This document shows positions 39,830-58,436 of a DNA stretch of 64,000 bases, one piece after another (position 1 is the first letter of the stretch; each line of letters starts with the position of its first letter). Below the pieces are notes generated by a model, which saw only the letters and a list, made by a program, of their open reading frames with translations, had not been told where the DNA came from and ran no database searches. The position numbers were made by a program, and so were the translations under genes. The stretch is taken from assembly GCF_022919155.1 (NCBI RefSeq), contig NZ_CP095045.1, positions 1,240,001-1,304,000 of the forward strand. Direction: 5' to 3'. The stretch is from Leucobacter allii (lineage in GTDB: Bacteria; Actinomycetota; Actinomycetes; Actinomycetales; Microbacteriaceae).

Positions 39830-41023
39830 GTGCCGCTGCGCCAGTTCACCTCGGAATCGGTCACCGAGGGGCACCCGGACAAGATCTGCGACCGCATCTC
39901 CGACACGATCCTCGACGCGATGATCGCGCAGGATCCGGGCGCCAGGGTGGCCGTCGAGACCCTCGTGACCACGGGACTCGTCCACGTCGCCGGCGAGGTC
40001 TCGACCTCGGGGTACGTCGAGATCCCGCAGCTCGTGCGCGATGCCGTGCGTGAGATCGGCTACACGAGCTCCGAGATGGGCTTCGACGCCGCCTCGTGCG
40101 GCGTGTCCGTGTCGATCGGACAGCAGTCGCCCGACATCGCCGGCGGCGTGGACGCGTCCCTCGAGGTGCGCAGCGGCGAGGACGCGGACGACGAGCTGAA
40201 CCGGCAGGGCGCCGGGGACCAGGGCATCATGTTCGGCTTCGCGACGGACGAGACCCCCGAGCTGCACCCGCTGCCGAGCTGGATCGCGCACCGGCTCGCG
40301 GAGCGGCTCACCGAGGTGCGCAAGGCCGGCATCCTCCCCGAGCTCCGCCCCGACGGCAAGACCCAGGTCACGGTGGGCTACGACGGGGACCGTGCGGCGT
40401 CGATCGAGGCCGTCGTTGTCTCGACCCAGCACCACGCTGACCTCGCGCTGCCCGCCCTGCAGGAGGCCGTCGCGCGCGAGGTCATCCGCCCGGTGCTCGA
40501 CCGCGTGGAGCTTCCGAGCGGCGGTGCCGAACTCATCATCAACCCCGCCGGCCCGTTCGTCGTCGGCGGCCCCATGGGCGACGCCGGGCTCACCGGGCGC
40601 AAGATCATCATCGACACCTACGGCGGGTGGAGCCGGCACGGCGGCGGCGCCTTCAGCGGCAAGGATCCCTCCAAGGTCGACCGCTCGGCGGCGTACGCGA
40701 TGCGCTGGGTCGCCAAGCACGTCGTGCGGGCGGGGCTCGCCCGTCGCGCCGAGCTGCAGGTCGCGTACGCGATCGGCCGGGCCCATCCCGTCGGCCTCTA
40801 CGTGGAGACCTTCGGCACGGAGACCGTGCCGGTCGAGCGCATCGAGCGTGCGGTGCGCGAGGTCTTCGATCTGCGCCCCCTCGCGATCATCCGCGATCTC
40901 GAGCTGATCCGCCCGATCTACGCGCGCACGAGCGCCTACGGCCACTTTGGCCGCGAGCTCCCCGAGTTCACCTGGGAGGCGACGCCGCGCATCGCCGAGC
41001 TGCGGGCCGCCGCGGGGGTCTAG
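39830..41023 (+). CDS. metK: S-adenosylmethionine synthetase MetK
   Basis: A 397-residue enzyme joining methionine and ATP to make SAM. It has [38 protein letters not shown], the Lys/Asp blocks [20 protein letters not shown] and [19 protein letters not shown], and ends near [14 protein letters not shown]. The GTG at 39830 has TAGGAG upstream and gives the family N-terminus [11 protein letters not shown]; the longer frame is not used. It is followed after 2 nt by priA. In other actinobacteria coaBC lies between rpoZ and metK. Confidence 0.97.
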
Positions 41024-41025
41024 CG

Positions 41026-43166
41026 GTGGCTCCGGCCTCGGCGGCGGAGCGCGCGGAGGCTCCGGGGGACCGCCCGGTCGCGCAGGTGCTGCTGGATTCC
41101 GCGCTGCCCCAGCTCGACCACCTGTTCGATTACGCCGTGCCGCCGTCGCTCGCGGCGGAGCTCCGGGTCGGGCAGCGGGTGCGGGTGCCGTTCCGCTCTC
41201 GCGAGCGGAAGAGCTTCGGCTACGTCGTCGGCTTCGCCGAGCGCAGCGAGTTCGGCGGCGAGCTCTCCCCGATCGCCGACATCGTCGGCCCCGTTCCCGT
41301 GCTGCAGCCGGAGATCTGGCGGCTCGCCCGCGCCGTGGCGGACCGCGCGGGGGGCTCCGCGGGCGACATCCTGCGGCTCGCGATCCCGAGTCGGCAGATC
41401 CGCGTCGAGAAGCGGCACCTGGCGGCCTCGGAGACGCCGGAGGACGCGATCGCCGCGGGATCGGAGCCCGGGGGCGTCGCGGAAGCGGGATCCGCCGCGG
41501 AGGCGCCGGAGGAGGTGCCAGCCGCGGAGTCGGCTGCCTCGGAGTCGGCTGCCGCGGAGCCCGGGGGGTCGGATGCGGCGGCCGGGGCAGCCGCGCCTCC
41601 GGCCGAGGCCGCCGTCGCCGCGGCGCTCGTCGCGGGCGAGCGGCTCGCGCTCACGGCCTCGCACGGCCCCGAACGGCTCCACACGGGGGAGTGGGTGGGC
41701 GGCTGGGCCGCGCAGCTCGCCAGGGTCGCGCTCGCGGTGCACGCGCTCGGCCGCAGCGCGATCCTCGTCGCCCCGGACTACCGCGACCTCGACCAGCTCC
41801 GCGACGCCCTCGACGCCCTGGGCGCGGGCGACGCGGTCGTCCGCGTCGATGCGCGGCAGTCGGGCGCCGAGCGATACGCCGGGTTCCTCCGCGCGCTCGA
41901 CGCGCAGCCGCGGATCGTGCTCGGCAACCGCTCCGCCGTGTACGCGCCGGCGCACGCGCTCGGCGCGATCCTGCTCTGGGACGACGGCGATCCGGTGCTC
42001 GCGGAGCCGCTCGCCCCGTACGTGCACGCGCGCGACGCCGCGCTCGTGCGGGCCGAGCAGTCGGGCGCGGGGCTCTTCTTCGCCGCGCACGCGCGCAGCG
42101 CGGAGGTGCAGCGGCTCGTCGATCTCGGCTACGTGCGCGCGCAGCGCAATCCGCCGCGGCGCGCGGTCATCCGCCACGCCGATGCCGCGATGACCCCTGA
42201 CGTCTTCGCGGGCCGCGTGCCCGAGTTCGCGGCCCGCACGATCCGCGGCGCGCTGCGGGAGGGACCGGTGCTCGTGCAGGTCGCCACGCCCGGCTACGCT
42301 CCGGTGGCCGTGTGCGGCGAGTGCGGTGAGCTCGCCCGGTGCCGCGCCTGCGGCGGGCCGATCGGCTTCCGCACCGTCGGGCGCGCCTCCTGCCGCTGGT
42401 GCGGCGAGTACGCCGCCGGCTGGCGCTGCGGCGGCTGCGATGGGCGGCGCCTCGAGGAGCGCGGCATGGGCTCGGCCCGCACCGTCGAGCAGTTCGAACG
42501 GCAGTTCGCGGGAGCGCGGGTGCTCCTCAGCGACGGCGAGCACCCGCGGGAGCGCGTCGACGGACGACCGGCGCTCGTCGTCGCGACGCGCGGCGCCGAG
42601 CCGCTCGCCGCGGGCGGCTACCGCGCCGTCGTGCTCCTCGACGCCGACCGGCTGCTCGGACTCGAGACCCTGCGCGCCGGTGAGGACTGCCTGCGGTGGT
42701 GGGAGAACGCCGCGGCGCTCGTCGCGGAGGACGGGGTGTGCCTCATGGCGGCCGGCGGCGGTCCCGTCGTCCGCGCCTTCGTGACGGGGCGCGTCGAGGA
42801 GTGGCTGCACGGGGAGCTCCGCGACCGGCACGCCCTGCGCTACCCGCCGGCCGTGCGCGTCGCGAGCGTCAGCGGCGGCGCCGAGGAGGTCGACCGCGCG
42901 CTCGCGGCGCTCGCGCAGCTCCCCGGCGTGGACCACCTCGGGCCCACCGCGATCCCCGCGGGCGGAGCCGCGAAGACGCCGCACGGGCTCGTCCGCGCGA
43001 TCGTCCGCTTCGACTACGGGCAGGGTGCCGAGGTCGCCAGGCGCCTGCGCGGCGCGCTCGTCGCCGACGCCGCGGGATCCGCGTCCCGGACGCGCGGCCG
43101 CGCCCCGGGCCGGGCACGGCCCGAGGCGCTGCGACTCCGCTTCGACGACCGCGGCGTCTTCGACGG

Positions 43167-43170
<4 letters not shown>
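41026..43170 (+). CDS. priA: PriA-family protein without helicase motifs
   Basis: A 714-residue primosomal N'-like protein. The 3'-DNA-binding domain ([36 protein letters not shown]) and the zinc part with paired cysteines ([31 protein letters not shown]) are present. The helicase core is degenerate: where Walker A should be it reads [15 protein letters not shown], and the Walker B region is ILLWDDGD instead of DEEH. Loss of ATPase motifs is known for actinobacterial PriA. A 60-residue Ala/Glu-rich insertion (around [14 protein letters not shown]) precedes the core. The stop overlaps the last 4 nt of the orphan trpB on the other strand. Confidence 0.92.
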
Positions 43171-44393
<1,223 letters not shown>

Positions 44394-44436
44394 TGCAGTG
44401 GTCCTTTGCTTCGTTGCGCCACTCGGAGACGACAAA

Positions 44437-44466
44437 CGGCACCGTCTCGCGAGGAGCGCGGTGCCG
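44437..44466 (-). terminator. Attenuator-like hairpin in the trpB leader
   Basis: In the transcript CGGCACCG pairs with CGGTGCCG around a 14-nt loop, followed by TTTGTC. It lies between the leader peptide stop and the trpB start, where an attenuation terminator belongs. Confidence 0.6.
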
Positions 44467-44497
44467 GGTGCATGCAGCTGCGTACGGGGGACCGCCC

Positions 44498-44530
44498 TCA
44501 GGCGATCCACCACTCGCGCGCAACGTGCAT
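44498..44530 (-). CDS. trpL: Trp leader peptide [10 protein letters not shown]
   Basis: A ten-codon frame (ATG to TGA) with two adjacent Trp codons, upstream of the orphan trpB on the same strand and followed by a terminator-like hairpin. Trp is the rarest residue, so a WW pair in a ten-residue frame right before trpB is unlikely by chance. A TACACT box ends 6 nt before the ATG, so the leader would be translated from the very 5' end of the mRNA. The TGGTGG codons can also pair (AGTGGT with ACCACT) with the spacer between the trpB Shine-Dalgarno and start. Confidence 0.7.
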
Positions 44531-44536
44531 GCGGCG

Positions 44537-44542
44537 AGTGTA
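44537..44542 (-). promoter_or_regulatory. Leaderless promoter -10 box for trpL-trpB
   Basis: TACACT on the minus strand, 6 nt before the leader peptide ATG at 44530. The divergent fmt gene starts 41 bp further on. Confidence 0.6.
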
Positions 44543-44582
44543 GCAGGATCCGCGGACCCTGCCGCGGTGCGAGAATGGGGGG

Positions 44583-45557
44583 ATGCGCATCGTCTTCGCC
44601 GGGACCCCGGAGGTCGCCGTCCCCAGTCTGCACGCCCTCGTCCGCGCGGGGCACGAGGTCGTCGGCGCGGTCACCCGCGAGGACGCACCGCTCGGGCGCA
44701 AGCGGGTGACCACGCCGTCGCCGGTCGCGACCGCCGCCGCCGAGCTCGGGATTCCGACGCTCAAGGCGAACCGGCTCGACGCTGCCGCCACGGAGTGGGT
44801 GCGGGGCCTCGCCCCCGATCTCGGGGTCGTCGTCGCGTACGGCGGGCTGGTCCGCGAGCCGCTGCTCTCGGCGCCGGTCCTCGGATGGATCAACCTGCAC
44901 TTCTCGGAGCTGCCGCGGTGGCGGGGAGCGGCGCCGGTGCAGCGCGCGCTCCAGGCGGGCGAGCAGCGGCTCGGCGTGACGGTCTTCCGGCTCGTCGCCG
45001 CGCTCGACGCCGGGGACGTGCTCAGCCGCGACGCGCGAGAGTTCCCGCGCGGCACGTCCGCGGGGGAGGCGCTCGCCGCGCTCGCGGATTCGGGGACCTC
45101 CGCGCTCCTCGCCGCCGTCGAAGCGCTCGCCGCCGACCCCGCGGCGGGGGAGCCCCAGGACGGCGAGGCGAGCTATGCGCACAAGCTGGCGCGGGAGGAC
45201 GGCAGGATCGATCTCGCCCGCTCCGCGGACGAAGTGCTCGCCCACTGGGCCGGGGTGACGCCCGAACCGGGTGCCTACGTGCTCCACGACGGGGCTCCGC
45301 TGAAGCTGCACGCGCTCGCCGCGGCACCCGACAGCACCCCCGACGCCGAGGGGCCCGCCGGGGCGCCGGTCGAGGGCGTGGCGGACCCGGCGGGGACGGT
45401 CACCCTCGAGCACGGCGCGGCGATCCTGCGGCTCGGCGGCGCCGACGGCACGGCGCGCACGGCGCTCGAGCTCGTGCGGGTGCAGCCCGCGGGCAAGCCG
45501 GCGATGGACGGCGCCGCATGGTTGCGGGGCCGCGGCGGGAAGGCGGTGCTCGCGTGA
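44583..45557 (+). CDS. fmt: Methionyl-tRNA formyltransferase
   Basis: A 324-residue enzyme that formylates initiator Met-tRNA with 10-formyl-tetrahydrofolate. It has [42 protein letters not shown], the active-site [17 protein letters not shown] and [12 protein letters not shown], with [17 protein letters not shown] opening the C-terminal tRNA-binding domain. The usual SLLP reads SELP. It starts divergently from trpL and overlaps rsmB (GTGA). The metK-priA-fmt-rsmB-rpe order is standard in actinobacteria except for the trpB inserted here. Confidence 0.96.
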
Positions 45558-52715: not shown

Positions 52716-53113
52716 CCGCGCCCGATCCGGTGCCCGCGGAGCTCGTCTTCGGGGAGACCGGACTGCTTCCCGCGATCATCCAGGACGATGTCTCAGGCGA
52801 GGTGCTCATGCTCGCCTGGATGGACCGGGAGGCCGTGCGCCGCACGCTCACCACGGGCCGCGTGACCTTCTGGTCCCGGTCCCGTCGGGAGTACTGGAGG
52901 AAGGGCGACACCTCCGGGCACCGGCAGTACGTGCGCGGCGTCGCGATGGACTGCGACGGCGACACCCTCCTCGTGCGGGTGATCCAGATCGGCGCGGCGT
53001 GCCACACCGGCACGCGCAGCTGCTTCACCGACCGCGAGATCCCGGCGCTCGTGGGGGATCCGGACGCCGAGGCCGGATCGGGAGGCGCCGCCGCGCCGGG
53101 AGCCGATGCCTGA
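52712..53113 (+). CDS. hisI: Phosphoribosyl-AMP cyclohydrolase
   Basis: A 133-residue zinc enzyme, third step of histidine synthesis. Seen: [60 protein letters not shown] (metal and zinc ligands; quoted as [13 protein letters not shown] and [10 protein letters not shown]). The last 25 residues are an Ala/Gly tail. ATG overlaps the hisF stop. trpE follows after 48 bp with its own promoter box. Confidence 0.96.
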
Positions 53114-55606: not shown

Positions 55607-56377
55607 GTGCTCGAGCAACTGCTGGCGGGCTCCCTCGAAGACGCGCGGACCCGCAGACAGCTCCGACCGTACGCCGTGGTCGAGGCCGAGGCGCTCGCGC
55701 GCCCGGCCGCCCTCGACGCGCTCGAGGCGCTCGCGCCCGCCGAGCACATGAAGGTGATCGCCGAGGTCAAGCGCGCGAGCCCCTCGCGCGGCGACCTCGC
55801 CGAGATCCCCGAACCGCACGCGCTCGCGGCCCAGTACGAGGCGGGCGGCGCGAGCGCGGTCAGCGTGCTGACCGAGGAGCGCAAGTTCAAGGGCTCCCTG
55901 GCCGACCTCGAGGCGGTGCGCAAGGCCGTCAGCATCCCGGTGCTGCGCAAGGACTTCATCGGCGACGAATACCAGGTGCTCGAGGCGCGCGCCGCGGGCG
56001 CCGACCTGGTGCTGCTCATCGTCGCCGCGCTCCCGCAGGCGCGGCTCGTCGCGCTGCACGAGCTCATCCGCGGGCTCGGCATGACCCCGCTCGTCGAAGC
56101 GCACTCCGCCGAGGAGGTGGCCCGCGCGGTCGACCTCGGCGCGCAGCTCATCGGCGTGAACGCCCGCGACCTGCGCAGCTTCGAGCTCGACCGCGAGCTG
56201 TTCGGCCGGGTCGCCGATCAGATCCCCGCCGGCGTCATCCGCGTGGCGGAGTCGGCGGTCCTCGACGTCGCCGACGTCGAGCGCTACCGCGAGGCCGGCG
56301 CCGACGCGGTGCTCGTGGGCGAGGCCCTCGTCACCAACGACCCCATCGCCACGCTGAGCGCCTACACCAGCGTCTGA
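55607..56377 (+). CDS. trpC: Indole-3-glycerol phosphate synthase
   Basis: A 256-residue TIM-barrel enzyme, fourth step of Trp synthesis. It has [20 protein letters not shown] (catalytic Lys in EVKRASPS), [35 protein letters not shown] (second catalytic Lys), [41 protein letters not shown] and [16 protein letters not shown] start directly after the HGxxPAAW gene. It is not fused to TrpF. Confidence 0.97.
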
Positions 56378-56391
56378 CCCGGACAGGCAGC

Positions 56392-57645
56392 ATGACCACA
56401 CACGAGAGCCCCCAGCCCGACGGCGCCCGCGCTCTGCGCGACGCGCGGGGCCCCTTCTTCGGCGAATACGGCGGGCGGTTCATGCCCGAGTCGCTCATCG
56501 CGGCGATCGACGAGCTCACCGAGGCCTATGCGGAGGCGCAGGCCGACCCCGCCTTCGCGGCCGAGCTCTCCGAGCTGCTGCACTCCTACGCCGGACGCCC
56601 GTCGCCGATCACCGAGGTGCCCCGTTTCGCGGCGCACGCGGGCGGCGCCCGCATCTTCCTCAAGCGCGAGGACCTCAACCACACGGGCTCCCACAAGATC
56701 AACAACGTGCTCGGCCAGGCGCTGCTCACGAAGCGGCTCGGCAAGCCGCGCGTCATCGCCGAGACCGGGGCGGGGCAGCACGGCGTCGCCACGGCGACGG
56801 CAGCCGCGCTGTTCGGCCTCGAGTGCACGATCTACATGGGCGAGGTCGACACGGAGCGCCAGGCGCTCAACGTCGCGCGCATGCGGCTGCTCGGGGCGGA
56901 GGTGGTCCCGGTCACCGCGGGCTCCCGCACCCTCAAGGACGCCATCAACGAGGCCTACCGCGACTGGGTGGCTTCGGTGGACCGCACCAATTACATTTTC
57001 GGCACGGCGGCCGGTCCGCACCCGTTCCCCGCGATGGTGCGCGACTTCCAGAAGATCATCTCGGAGGAGGCGCGCGCGCAGCTGCTCGAGCGCGCCGGCC
57101 GTCTGCCCGACGCGGTCGTGGCCTGCGTCGGGGGAGGCTCGAACGCCATCGGCATGTTCGACGCCTTCCTCGACGACGCGGAGGTGCGCCTGTACGGGGT
57201 CGAAGCCGCAGGGGACGGCATCGACACGGATCGGCACGCGACCTCGATCGAGCGCGGCCGCCCCGGCATCCTCCACGGCGCGAAGACCTACGTGCTGCAG
57301 GACGAGGACGGGCAGACGATCGAGTCGCACTCGATCTCCGCAGGGCTCGACTATCCGGGCGTCGGACCCGAGCACGCCTGGCTCTCCGACATCGGGCGCG
57401 CCGAGTACATCCCCGCGACCGACGACGAGGCGATGCAGGCGCTGCGGTTGCTCAGCCGCACCGAGGGGATCATTCCGGCGATCGAGTCCGCGCACGCGCT
57501 CGCGGGAGCCCTCCGGATCGGCAAGGAGCTCGGACCCGAGGGGCTCATCGCGGTGAGCCTCTCCGGGCGCGGCGACAAGGACATGGCGACCGCGGGCCGG
57601 TACTTCGGCCTGCTCGACGAGAACGCGGCGGGGGCCGAGGGATGA
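56392..57645 (+). CDS. trpB: Tryptophan synthase beta subunit (operon copy)
   Basis: A 417-residue PLP enzyme joining indole and serine. It has [20 protein letters not shown], the PLP lysine in [85 protein letters not shown] and SGRGDKDM. It lies between trpC and trpA and overlaps trpA by 4 nt, as expected for the subunit that channels indole from TrpA. The orphan copy at 43167 is a distinct paralogue. Confidence 0.97.
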
Positions 57646-58436
57646 CCGGGCACGACTCCCAGGTGGCCGCGGCGATCCGCGCGGCGCGGCGCGACCGGCG
57701 CGGGGCGCTCGTCGGCTACCTCCCGGTGGGCTTCCCCGACCTCGAGACGAGCATCGACGCCGCGATCGCGATGGCCGAGAGCGGCGCCGACGTGCTCGAG
57801 CTCGGCGTGCCCTACTCCGATCCCGTGATGGACGGCGCCGTGATCCAGGAGGCGACGCAGACCGCGCTCGCCGGCGGATTCCGCCTGCACGACGTCTTCG
57901 AGGCGGTGCGGCGCGTGCGCGCCGCCGTCGACGTGCCGATCCTCGTCATGACCTACTGGAACCCCGTGCTGCAGTACGGCGTGGAGCGCTTCGCGCGCGA
58001 ACTCGTCGAGGCCGGCGGGGCGGGCCTCATCACGCCGGACATCACGCCGGACTCGGCGGCGGACTGGATCTCCGCGAGCGAGCGCTTCGGGCTCGACCGG
58101 GTCTTCCTGGCGGCGCCGAGCTCGAGCGACGCGCGGCTGCGGCTCGTCGCCGAGTCGAGCACCGGCTTCGTCTACACGGTCTCCACCATGGGGATCACGG
58201 GCGAGCGCGCGCAGCTCGACGCCGCGGCGCGCGGGCTCACGGCGCGCCTGCGGGAGCAGGGCGCCGAGCTCGCCTGCGTGGGGATCGGCATCTCCACCGC
58301 CGAGCAGGTGGCGGGCGCGCTCGAGTACGCCGACGGCGCGATCGTCGGCACGGCCTTCGTCCGCGCGCTCCGCGACGGCGGTGTGGACGCGCTCGCGCGC
58401 ACCGTGCGCGAGATCGCCGCGGGAACCGCGCGCTAG
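57642..58436 (+). CDS. trpA: Tryptophan synthase alpha subunit
   Basis: A 264-residue TIM barrel that cleaves indole-3-glycerol phosphate and passes indole to TrpB. It has [19 protein letters not shown], the catalytic Glu in [61 protein letters not shown] and [15 protein letters not shown] overlaps the trpB stop. The lgt promoter box lies across its stop codon. Confidence 0.97.

Follow-up and report, generated by a model that had tools for sequence, protein, structure and literature searches.

Two trpB genes lie within one stretch of 64,000 nucleotides of the Leucobacter allii genome (contig NZ_CP095045.1, positions 1,240,001 to 1,304,000, hereafter the window), the one together with trpC and trpA and the other on its own. 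The stand-alone copy is preceded by a short reading frame with two adjacent tryptophan codons (WW), and this raises the question of whether, and by which mechanism, a lone trpB responds to the supply of tryptophan. Judged from comparative sequence analysis, it is most probably controlled by a ribosome-mediated transcription attenuator (probability roughly 0.86).

The Lone trpB and Its Surroundings

The stand-alone gene encodes a canonical tryptophan synthase beta chain, with 561.6 bits against a curated cut-off of 392.45 bits in NCBIfam TIGR00263 (table 1). By eye, its two neighbors are taken to be priA and fmt. The identity between the two TrpB proteins of the window is 56%. The trpE of the main operon, recognized by eye, presumably runs from 53162. 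The ORF preceding it ends at 53113, that is, 48 nt before trpE, and the only match at E<=0.05 of the covariance model described below (R1) in this genome is located at the orphan trpB. Thus, the main trpE has no such leader, as the earlier note had claimed.

Table 1. Features of the Lone trpB Locus, in Window Positions, and Loci of Related Elements
Feature	Position	Strand	Remarks
Second trpB with trpC and trpA	about 55607..58436		
ORF, presumably fmt	44583..45557		divergent from the stand-alone trpB
Extended -10 element TGC-TACACT	44537..44545	-	TACACT at 44542-44537; 6 nt before leader ATG
Leader peptide ORF	44498..44530	-	ATG CAC GTT GCG CGC GAG TGG TGG ATC GCC TGA; Trp codons 44512-44507
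Segment 1 (GGATCGCC)	44501..44508	-	in last Trp codon and next two codons; 1:2 covaries
Segment 2 (GGCGGTCC)	44489..44496	-	directly after stop codon; partner of 1 and 3
Helix GGAUCGCC/GGCGGUCC	44508-44489	-	directly after WW codons
Spacer TGCAT	44472..44476	-	predicted partner of leader start ATGCA (44530-44526)
Segment 3 (CGGCACCG)	44459..44466	-	terminator left arm; also partner of segment 2
Segment 4 (CGGTGCCG) and short U-tract TTTGTC	44431..44444	-	hairpin -17.4 kcal/mol
Terminator hairpin CGGCACCG...CGGTGCCG	44466-44437	-	8 bp and 3 inner bp; then TTTGTC at 44436-44431
trpB Shine-Dalgarno AAAGGA	44402..44407	-	read in sequence; similar motifs listed for orthologues
Stand-alone trpB	43167..44393	-	408 aa, TTG start; TIGR00263 561.6 bits; catalytic motifs intact
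ORF, presumably priA	40627..43170		convergent with trpB 3′ end, 4-base overlap
Patescibacteria candidate element loci	L082, L095, L102, L110, L127, L244, L246, L247, L249, L251		upstream of trpB

Leader Peptide and Promoter

The TACACT box, the ten-codon WW leader, the 8-bp hairpin with TTTGTC and the TTG start of trpB were all read on the minus strand where the earlier note had put them. A short ORF that ends in WW, two codons and a stop is found upstream of the orphan trpB in 34 of the 35 Leucobacter loci. Conservation of the WW frame in relatives had been named beforehand as the point on which the idea of a Trp leader peptide attenuating the lone trpB could fail; it held across the genus, and together with the kept alternative helices it supports that idea. 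The leaders are ten codons long in 31 of these 34 loci, typically MHxxxQWWTA, and two codons always separate WW from the stop in kept leaders.

In the sole exception (L055, genome G121), other sequence with inverted repeats extends up to the region of the leader stop and replaces the promoter and the leader, with the rest of the element and trpB kept. The sequence change is probably an insertion; as this locus reads, the control region has been lost naturally while trpB was retained. Because G121 keeps trpB with the leader cut away, the element is not strictly required.

Promoter position points to a leaderless transcript. A TAnnnT box precedes the ATG in 39/39 leaders (6 nt in 29, 7 nt in 10), a count which includes five trpB loci of other Actinomycetota and is affected by the leader script, since an ATG with a box was preferred when several ATGs were possible. 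The extended TGn is present in 31 of the 39, and a motif similar to Shine-Dalgarno in one. The place of the -10 box implies that transcripts begin at the leader ATG or beside it, and the leader would be read without a Shine-Dalgarno site. Hence, its translation from the 5′ end of the mRNA, as previously proposed for the window, is probably correct.

Alternative Helices of the Leader RNA

The same complementary words, typically ACCGCC and GGCGGT, recur in segments 1 to 4. Segments 3 and 4 form the terminator hairpin, and a hairpin before a T-run was found by script in 33 of 37 rows. The helix directly behind the WW codons had been left out of the earlier note.

The helices 1:2 and 3:4 covary. 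In detail, 96.7% of the cells are paired and 7/16 pairs are changed on both sides in 19 of the 37 distinct rows, which were picked by eye for a 4-base loop and also served to build model R1; seven further rows with a 4-base loop are absent from this sample (L141, L088, L140, L142, L046, L074, and L077). These values were reached by none of 500 shuffles, which leave the relatedness of the sequences in place, and the best slid version had 71.2% of its cells paired. Helix 2:3 is paired in 91.2%, with covariation that does not go beyond the shuffles (204/500 reach it). It rests on the repeated words and not on covariation, because its partner slid by +3 still pairs in 87.7% of the counted cells. 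A consensus fold of the 37-row alignment by RNAalifold misplaced helix 1:2, because rows vary by one base at the stop codon and in loop length. Over the 37 rows, segment 1 matches segment 2 better within a species than across species (1/2000 permutations as good).

Folds masked by a ribosome, whose leading edge is taken to lie 15 nt from the P site, agree with a switch. When the first Trp codon is in the A site, 2:3 forms in 37/37 rows before segment 4 exists; when the ribosome is at the stop, 3:4 forms in 37/37. The free RNA folds into 1:2 in 36/37, the miss being L090. Single helices are common in shuffled sequences (19% for 1:2, 36% for 2:3, and 24% for 3:4), and all three alternatives occur in 36/37 rows versus 1.6% of 740 shuffles. 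This value and the WW frame of 34/35 orthologues argue against an element formed by chance. The stability of the single sequence offers no evidence, since the z-score of the whole-leader fold is an unremarkable -1.02.

A further predicted pairing engages the leader start. The ATGCA at the start matches the spacer from the same species better than spacers from other species (0/2000 permutations), and the pairing probability with the own spacer was not equalled by any of 5000 swaps (29 rows), statistics that relatedness may inflate. The start codon is paired at p>0.5 in 22/29 ten-codon leaders, mainly with the spacer in 19/29, and is hardly paired in L039 and L050. This helix would restrict further rounds of translation once the leader is complete.

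Proposed Mechanism and Alternatives

Under the proposed mechanism, transcription would start at the leader ATG and translation of the leader would need no Shine-Dalgarno site. A shortage of charged tRNA-Trp would hold the ribosome on the Trp codons, where it covers segment 1, so that 2:3 pairs and RNA polymerase continues into trpB. With Trp in good supply, the ribosome would move on to the stop and cover segment 2, in which case 3:4 would form and terminate. In the absence of translation, 1:2 would form and 3:4 would terminate as well. Most likely, the enzyme would work alongside the main operon and make Trp from free indole and serine when Trp is short.

A weak point of this scheme in the window is the U-tract, which has three T residues versus T4-T8 in 30/34 Leucobacter loci. 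This would be expected if the control were Rho-dependent or based on coupling only, with the leader acting through translation and the hairpin, its U-tract decayed, no longer terminating alone. Such a control is unlikely, given that the hairpin and its exclusive partner are intact in the window (L001) and that L034, L044, and L057, the other loci with shorter tracts, also have short or interrupted ones with the rest of the element kept.

The earlier note had proposed that the WW region pairs with the spacer that separates the TTG from its Shine-Dalgarno site, so that a stalled ribosome could free the trpB start. Both words, AGTGGT in the leader and ACCACT before the TTG, are indeed present in the window, and a helix of at least 6 bp can form in 7/34 orthologues. 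However, it is not kept in the other 27, though their WW codons are (three of these, L047, L139, and L140, had the trpB start misplaced by the script and were counted as misses). What is kept instead is the hairpin between leader and gene, and translational attenuation is accordingly very improbable. That the element has decayed from a functional attenuator and no longer affects a redundant trpB would suit the 19 of 54 genomes without the orphan (several of them incomplete drafts), its split in G136 and the cut leader of G121, but is hardly credible with the leader and segments of the window intact and with the PLP lysine and catalytic motifs of TrpB present in 35/35 orphan rows (the window counted twice, G136 left out).

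Distribution in Leucobacter and Other Actinomycetota

The orphan trpB occurs in 35 of the 54 Leucobacter genomes. One of the 35 is G136, where the gene was matched as two overlapping pieces (G136:C11:69085-70271) with leader and element intact; a frameshift is a possible cause. A relative of the neighboring ORFs (fmt, priA) is located in the available flank of 29/35 orphan loci, and a search of the flanks of 43 Leucobacter loci revealed no relatives of trpA, trpC or trpE.

Under stricter filters, model R1 gave a strong match (E<=9.4e-6) in all 35 orphan-bearing genomes and in 0/19 of the others. Weak matches were seen in 3/19 orphan-less genomes at E 0.01-0.02, and further ones in seven orphan genomes at E 0.002-0.05. 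Weak R1 matches at L185-L195 have no leader ORF. Rfam release 15 (4227 models) had no match in 44300-44700 at E<=10, and its scan of seven relatives gave a single unrelated row that stayed below the gathering score. When leaderless WW leaders were sought with a loose pattern in the 54 genomes of the genus, many unrelated matches came up.

Outside Leucobacter, the 67 best-match loci examined from other Actinomycetota contain a leader ORF by the script rule in 33 cases and none in 34. The 33 leaders precede a relative of chorismate-binding enzymes of the anthranilate-synthase type (21), a lone-type trpB (3), a main-type trpB (1), a trpE relative (1) or none of the queries (7). The element thus belongs to a class that has already been described. 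Loci of the chorismate-binding type with a WW leader and a TAnnnT shortly upstream of it are L178, L180-L184, L199-L201, L203, L207, L208, L210-L212, L236, and L238-L242; the enzyme relatives of L180 and L181, the two scanned, score below the NCBIfam cut-offs. In the group of seven without a query gene, leaders such as MTTRTCTQLWWAA resemble the trpS leader trpL2 of Streptomyces lividans as described in the available part of PMC8079986.

Twelve trpB loci of non-Leucobacter Actinomycetota were inspected. Five have a WW leader (L073, L074, L077, L088, and L090), L094 has a mini-ORF with a single Trp, five have none, and L083 was not located by the script. No relatives of trpA, trpC or trpE are present in the available flanks of any of the 12. 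The trpA gene is absent in two of the 11 genomes tested, Gleimia coleocanis and an Actinomycetaceae MAG, both with trpC. The lone trpB genes L077 (from G. coleocanis) and L088 carry a WW attenuator in genomes where trpC was found and trpA was not.

Comparison with Known Attenuators

The E. coli trpL follows the same 1:2, 2:3, 3:4 logic as the Leucobacter element, and its leader start also pairs with a downstream stretch. Unlike that of Leucobacter, its leader has a Shine-Dalgarno site and precedes trpEDCBA. Trp attenuators in Actinobacteria were reportedly treated by Korolev and others in 2015, a paper that may already list the Leucobacter element.

A close likeness is to S. lividans, whose trpL1 (before the monocistronic trpE) and trpL2 (before trpS) are reported, in the part of PMC8079986 available, as leaderless Trp leaders with hairpins before a monocistronic gene; trpL1 also has a U-enriched stretch. 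The targets differ, being trpE or trpS and not trpB, and the leader MFAHSTRNWWWTAHPAAH is the longer one and carries seven codons behind WWW. In view of these leaders, calling such control unusual was too strong as to its leaderless part, and the lone trpB as a target is new. Thus, the type of switch is already known and its use on a lone trpB is the novelty.

The classical attenuators of Corynebacterium and Streptomyces are similar in their double or triple Trp codons and in a repeated complementary segment shared by antiterminator and terminator (Seliverstov 2005, PMC1262725, as far as its available text goes). For instance, candidate attenuators of C. diphtheriae are placed there before trpB1EDGC and trpB2A. 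The attenuators named in that text precede trp operons or trpS, whereas the Leucobacter trpB stands alone, and Leucobacter is not among the names in this portion of the survey. Cysteine-rich upstream ORFs of mycobacteria resemble the element as short ORFs with a run of regulatory codons and proposed attenuation (PMC4633059 and PMC1262725, available parts); they differ in their cysteine codons, and the same portion of the 2005 survey saw no conserved terminator hairpin for them. Literature searches that joined Leucobacter, tryptophan synthase and attenuation, or Microbacteriaceae, leader peptide and attenuator, returned nothing.

The wiring of a second, unlinked trpB to Trp shortage, with the main operon lacking such an element, would point to a separate role, for example, indole salvage. 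Salvage of indole to Trp is reported for bifidobacteria in the accessible portion of PMC11085991. Moreover, the compact leaderless layout with fixed spacing would be a clean system for studying how a ribosome on a 5′-terminal AUG paces RNA polymerase.

Candidate Elements before trpB in Patescibacteria

Ten lone trpB loci of Patescibacteria (table 1) have a WW mini-ORF within 400 nt of trpB and a hairpin with a U-tail (that of L102 was picked by eye, as the script chose another). In the same ten, when a ribosome occupies the Trp codons, the left arm of the hairpin can pair over 5-11 bp with an exclusive partner upstream. Five of the ten have TAnnnT at exactly 6 nt ahead of the ATG, where composition predicts 0.41 for 6 or 7 nt.

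The element was found in 10/14 evaluable genomes without trpA over the cut-off and in 0/16 with trpA, genome completeness not being given. A split of this kind has a chance of about 3e-5, calculated by hand and with kinship ignored; the ten elements are not ten independent events, because their TrpB proteins share a lineage. The misses among the trpA-less genomes are G1075, G1014, G1115, and G1144, and G772 was left out for too little upstream sequence. When the scan was widened to all available upstream sequence (0.7-3 kb), G1075 gained one element (L245, 482 nt upstream), and the 16 genomes with trpA still had none. In these 16, trpA adjoins trpB in 14 and trpC does so in nine; therefore, trpB often belongs to an operon that may begin beyond the sequence examined.

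The Patescibacteria elements suggest a recurring indole-salvage switch. A joint reading, offered tentatively and with somewhat more doubt than confidence, is that a Trp attenuator, often leaderless, before a lone trpB is such a switch in Actinomycetota and also, through independent origin or transfer, in Patescibacteria without a detected trpA, where trpB would make Trp from the indole of neighbors. In the same reading, completion of the RNA would let the spacer sequester the start codon of the Leucobacter leader again, which would leave the decision to the first ribosome alone. No work joining Patescibacteria with leader peptide and attenuation was found in the literature. If real, these elements would bring amino-acid-sensing attenuation to a group with very small genomes and would make dependence on partners for Trp or indole predictable from sequence.

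The Lone TrpB Protein

Among the 120 rows of a quick tree, a set of 50 (SH-aLRT 98) unites the orphans with eight outgroup rows, which bear the element or are related, and with eight others. This set is placed apart from the main TrpBs of Microbacteriaceae (SH-aLRT 99), with many inner forks open. The stand-alone signature "Res6" of LBCA (E36, E42, T53, S187, A279, and M280) does not describe the orphans, only S187 being common to all 35 orphan rows. Other activating residue sets exist for stand-alone TrpB, according to the available part of PMC11917138.

The trpB of the window starts with TTG within CATTG (window:44391-44396), and most relatives shown have CATG or AATG at this place. One extra T seems to have turned the ATG into TTG in this species.
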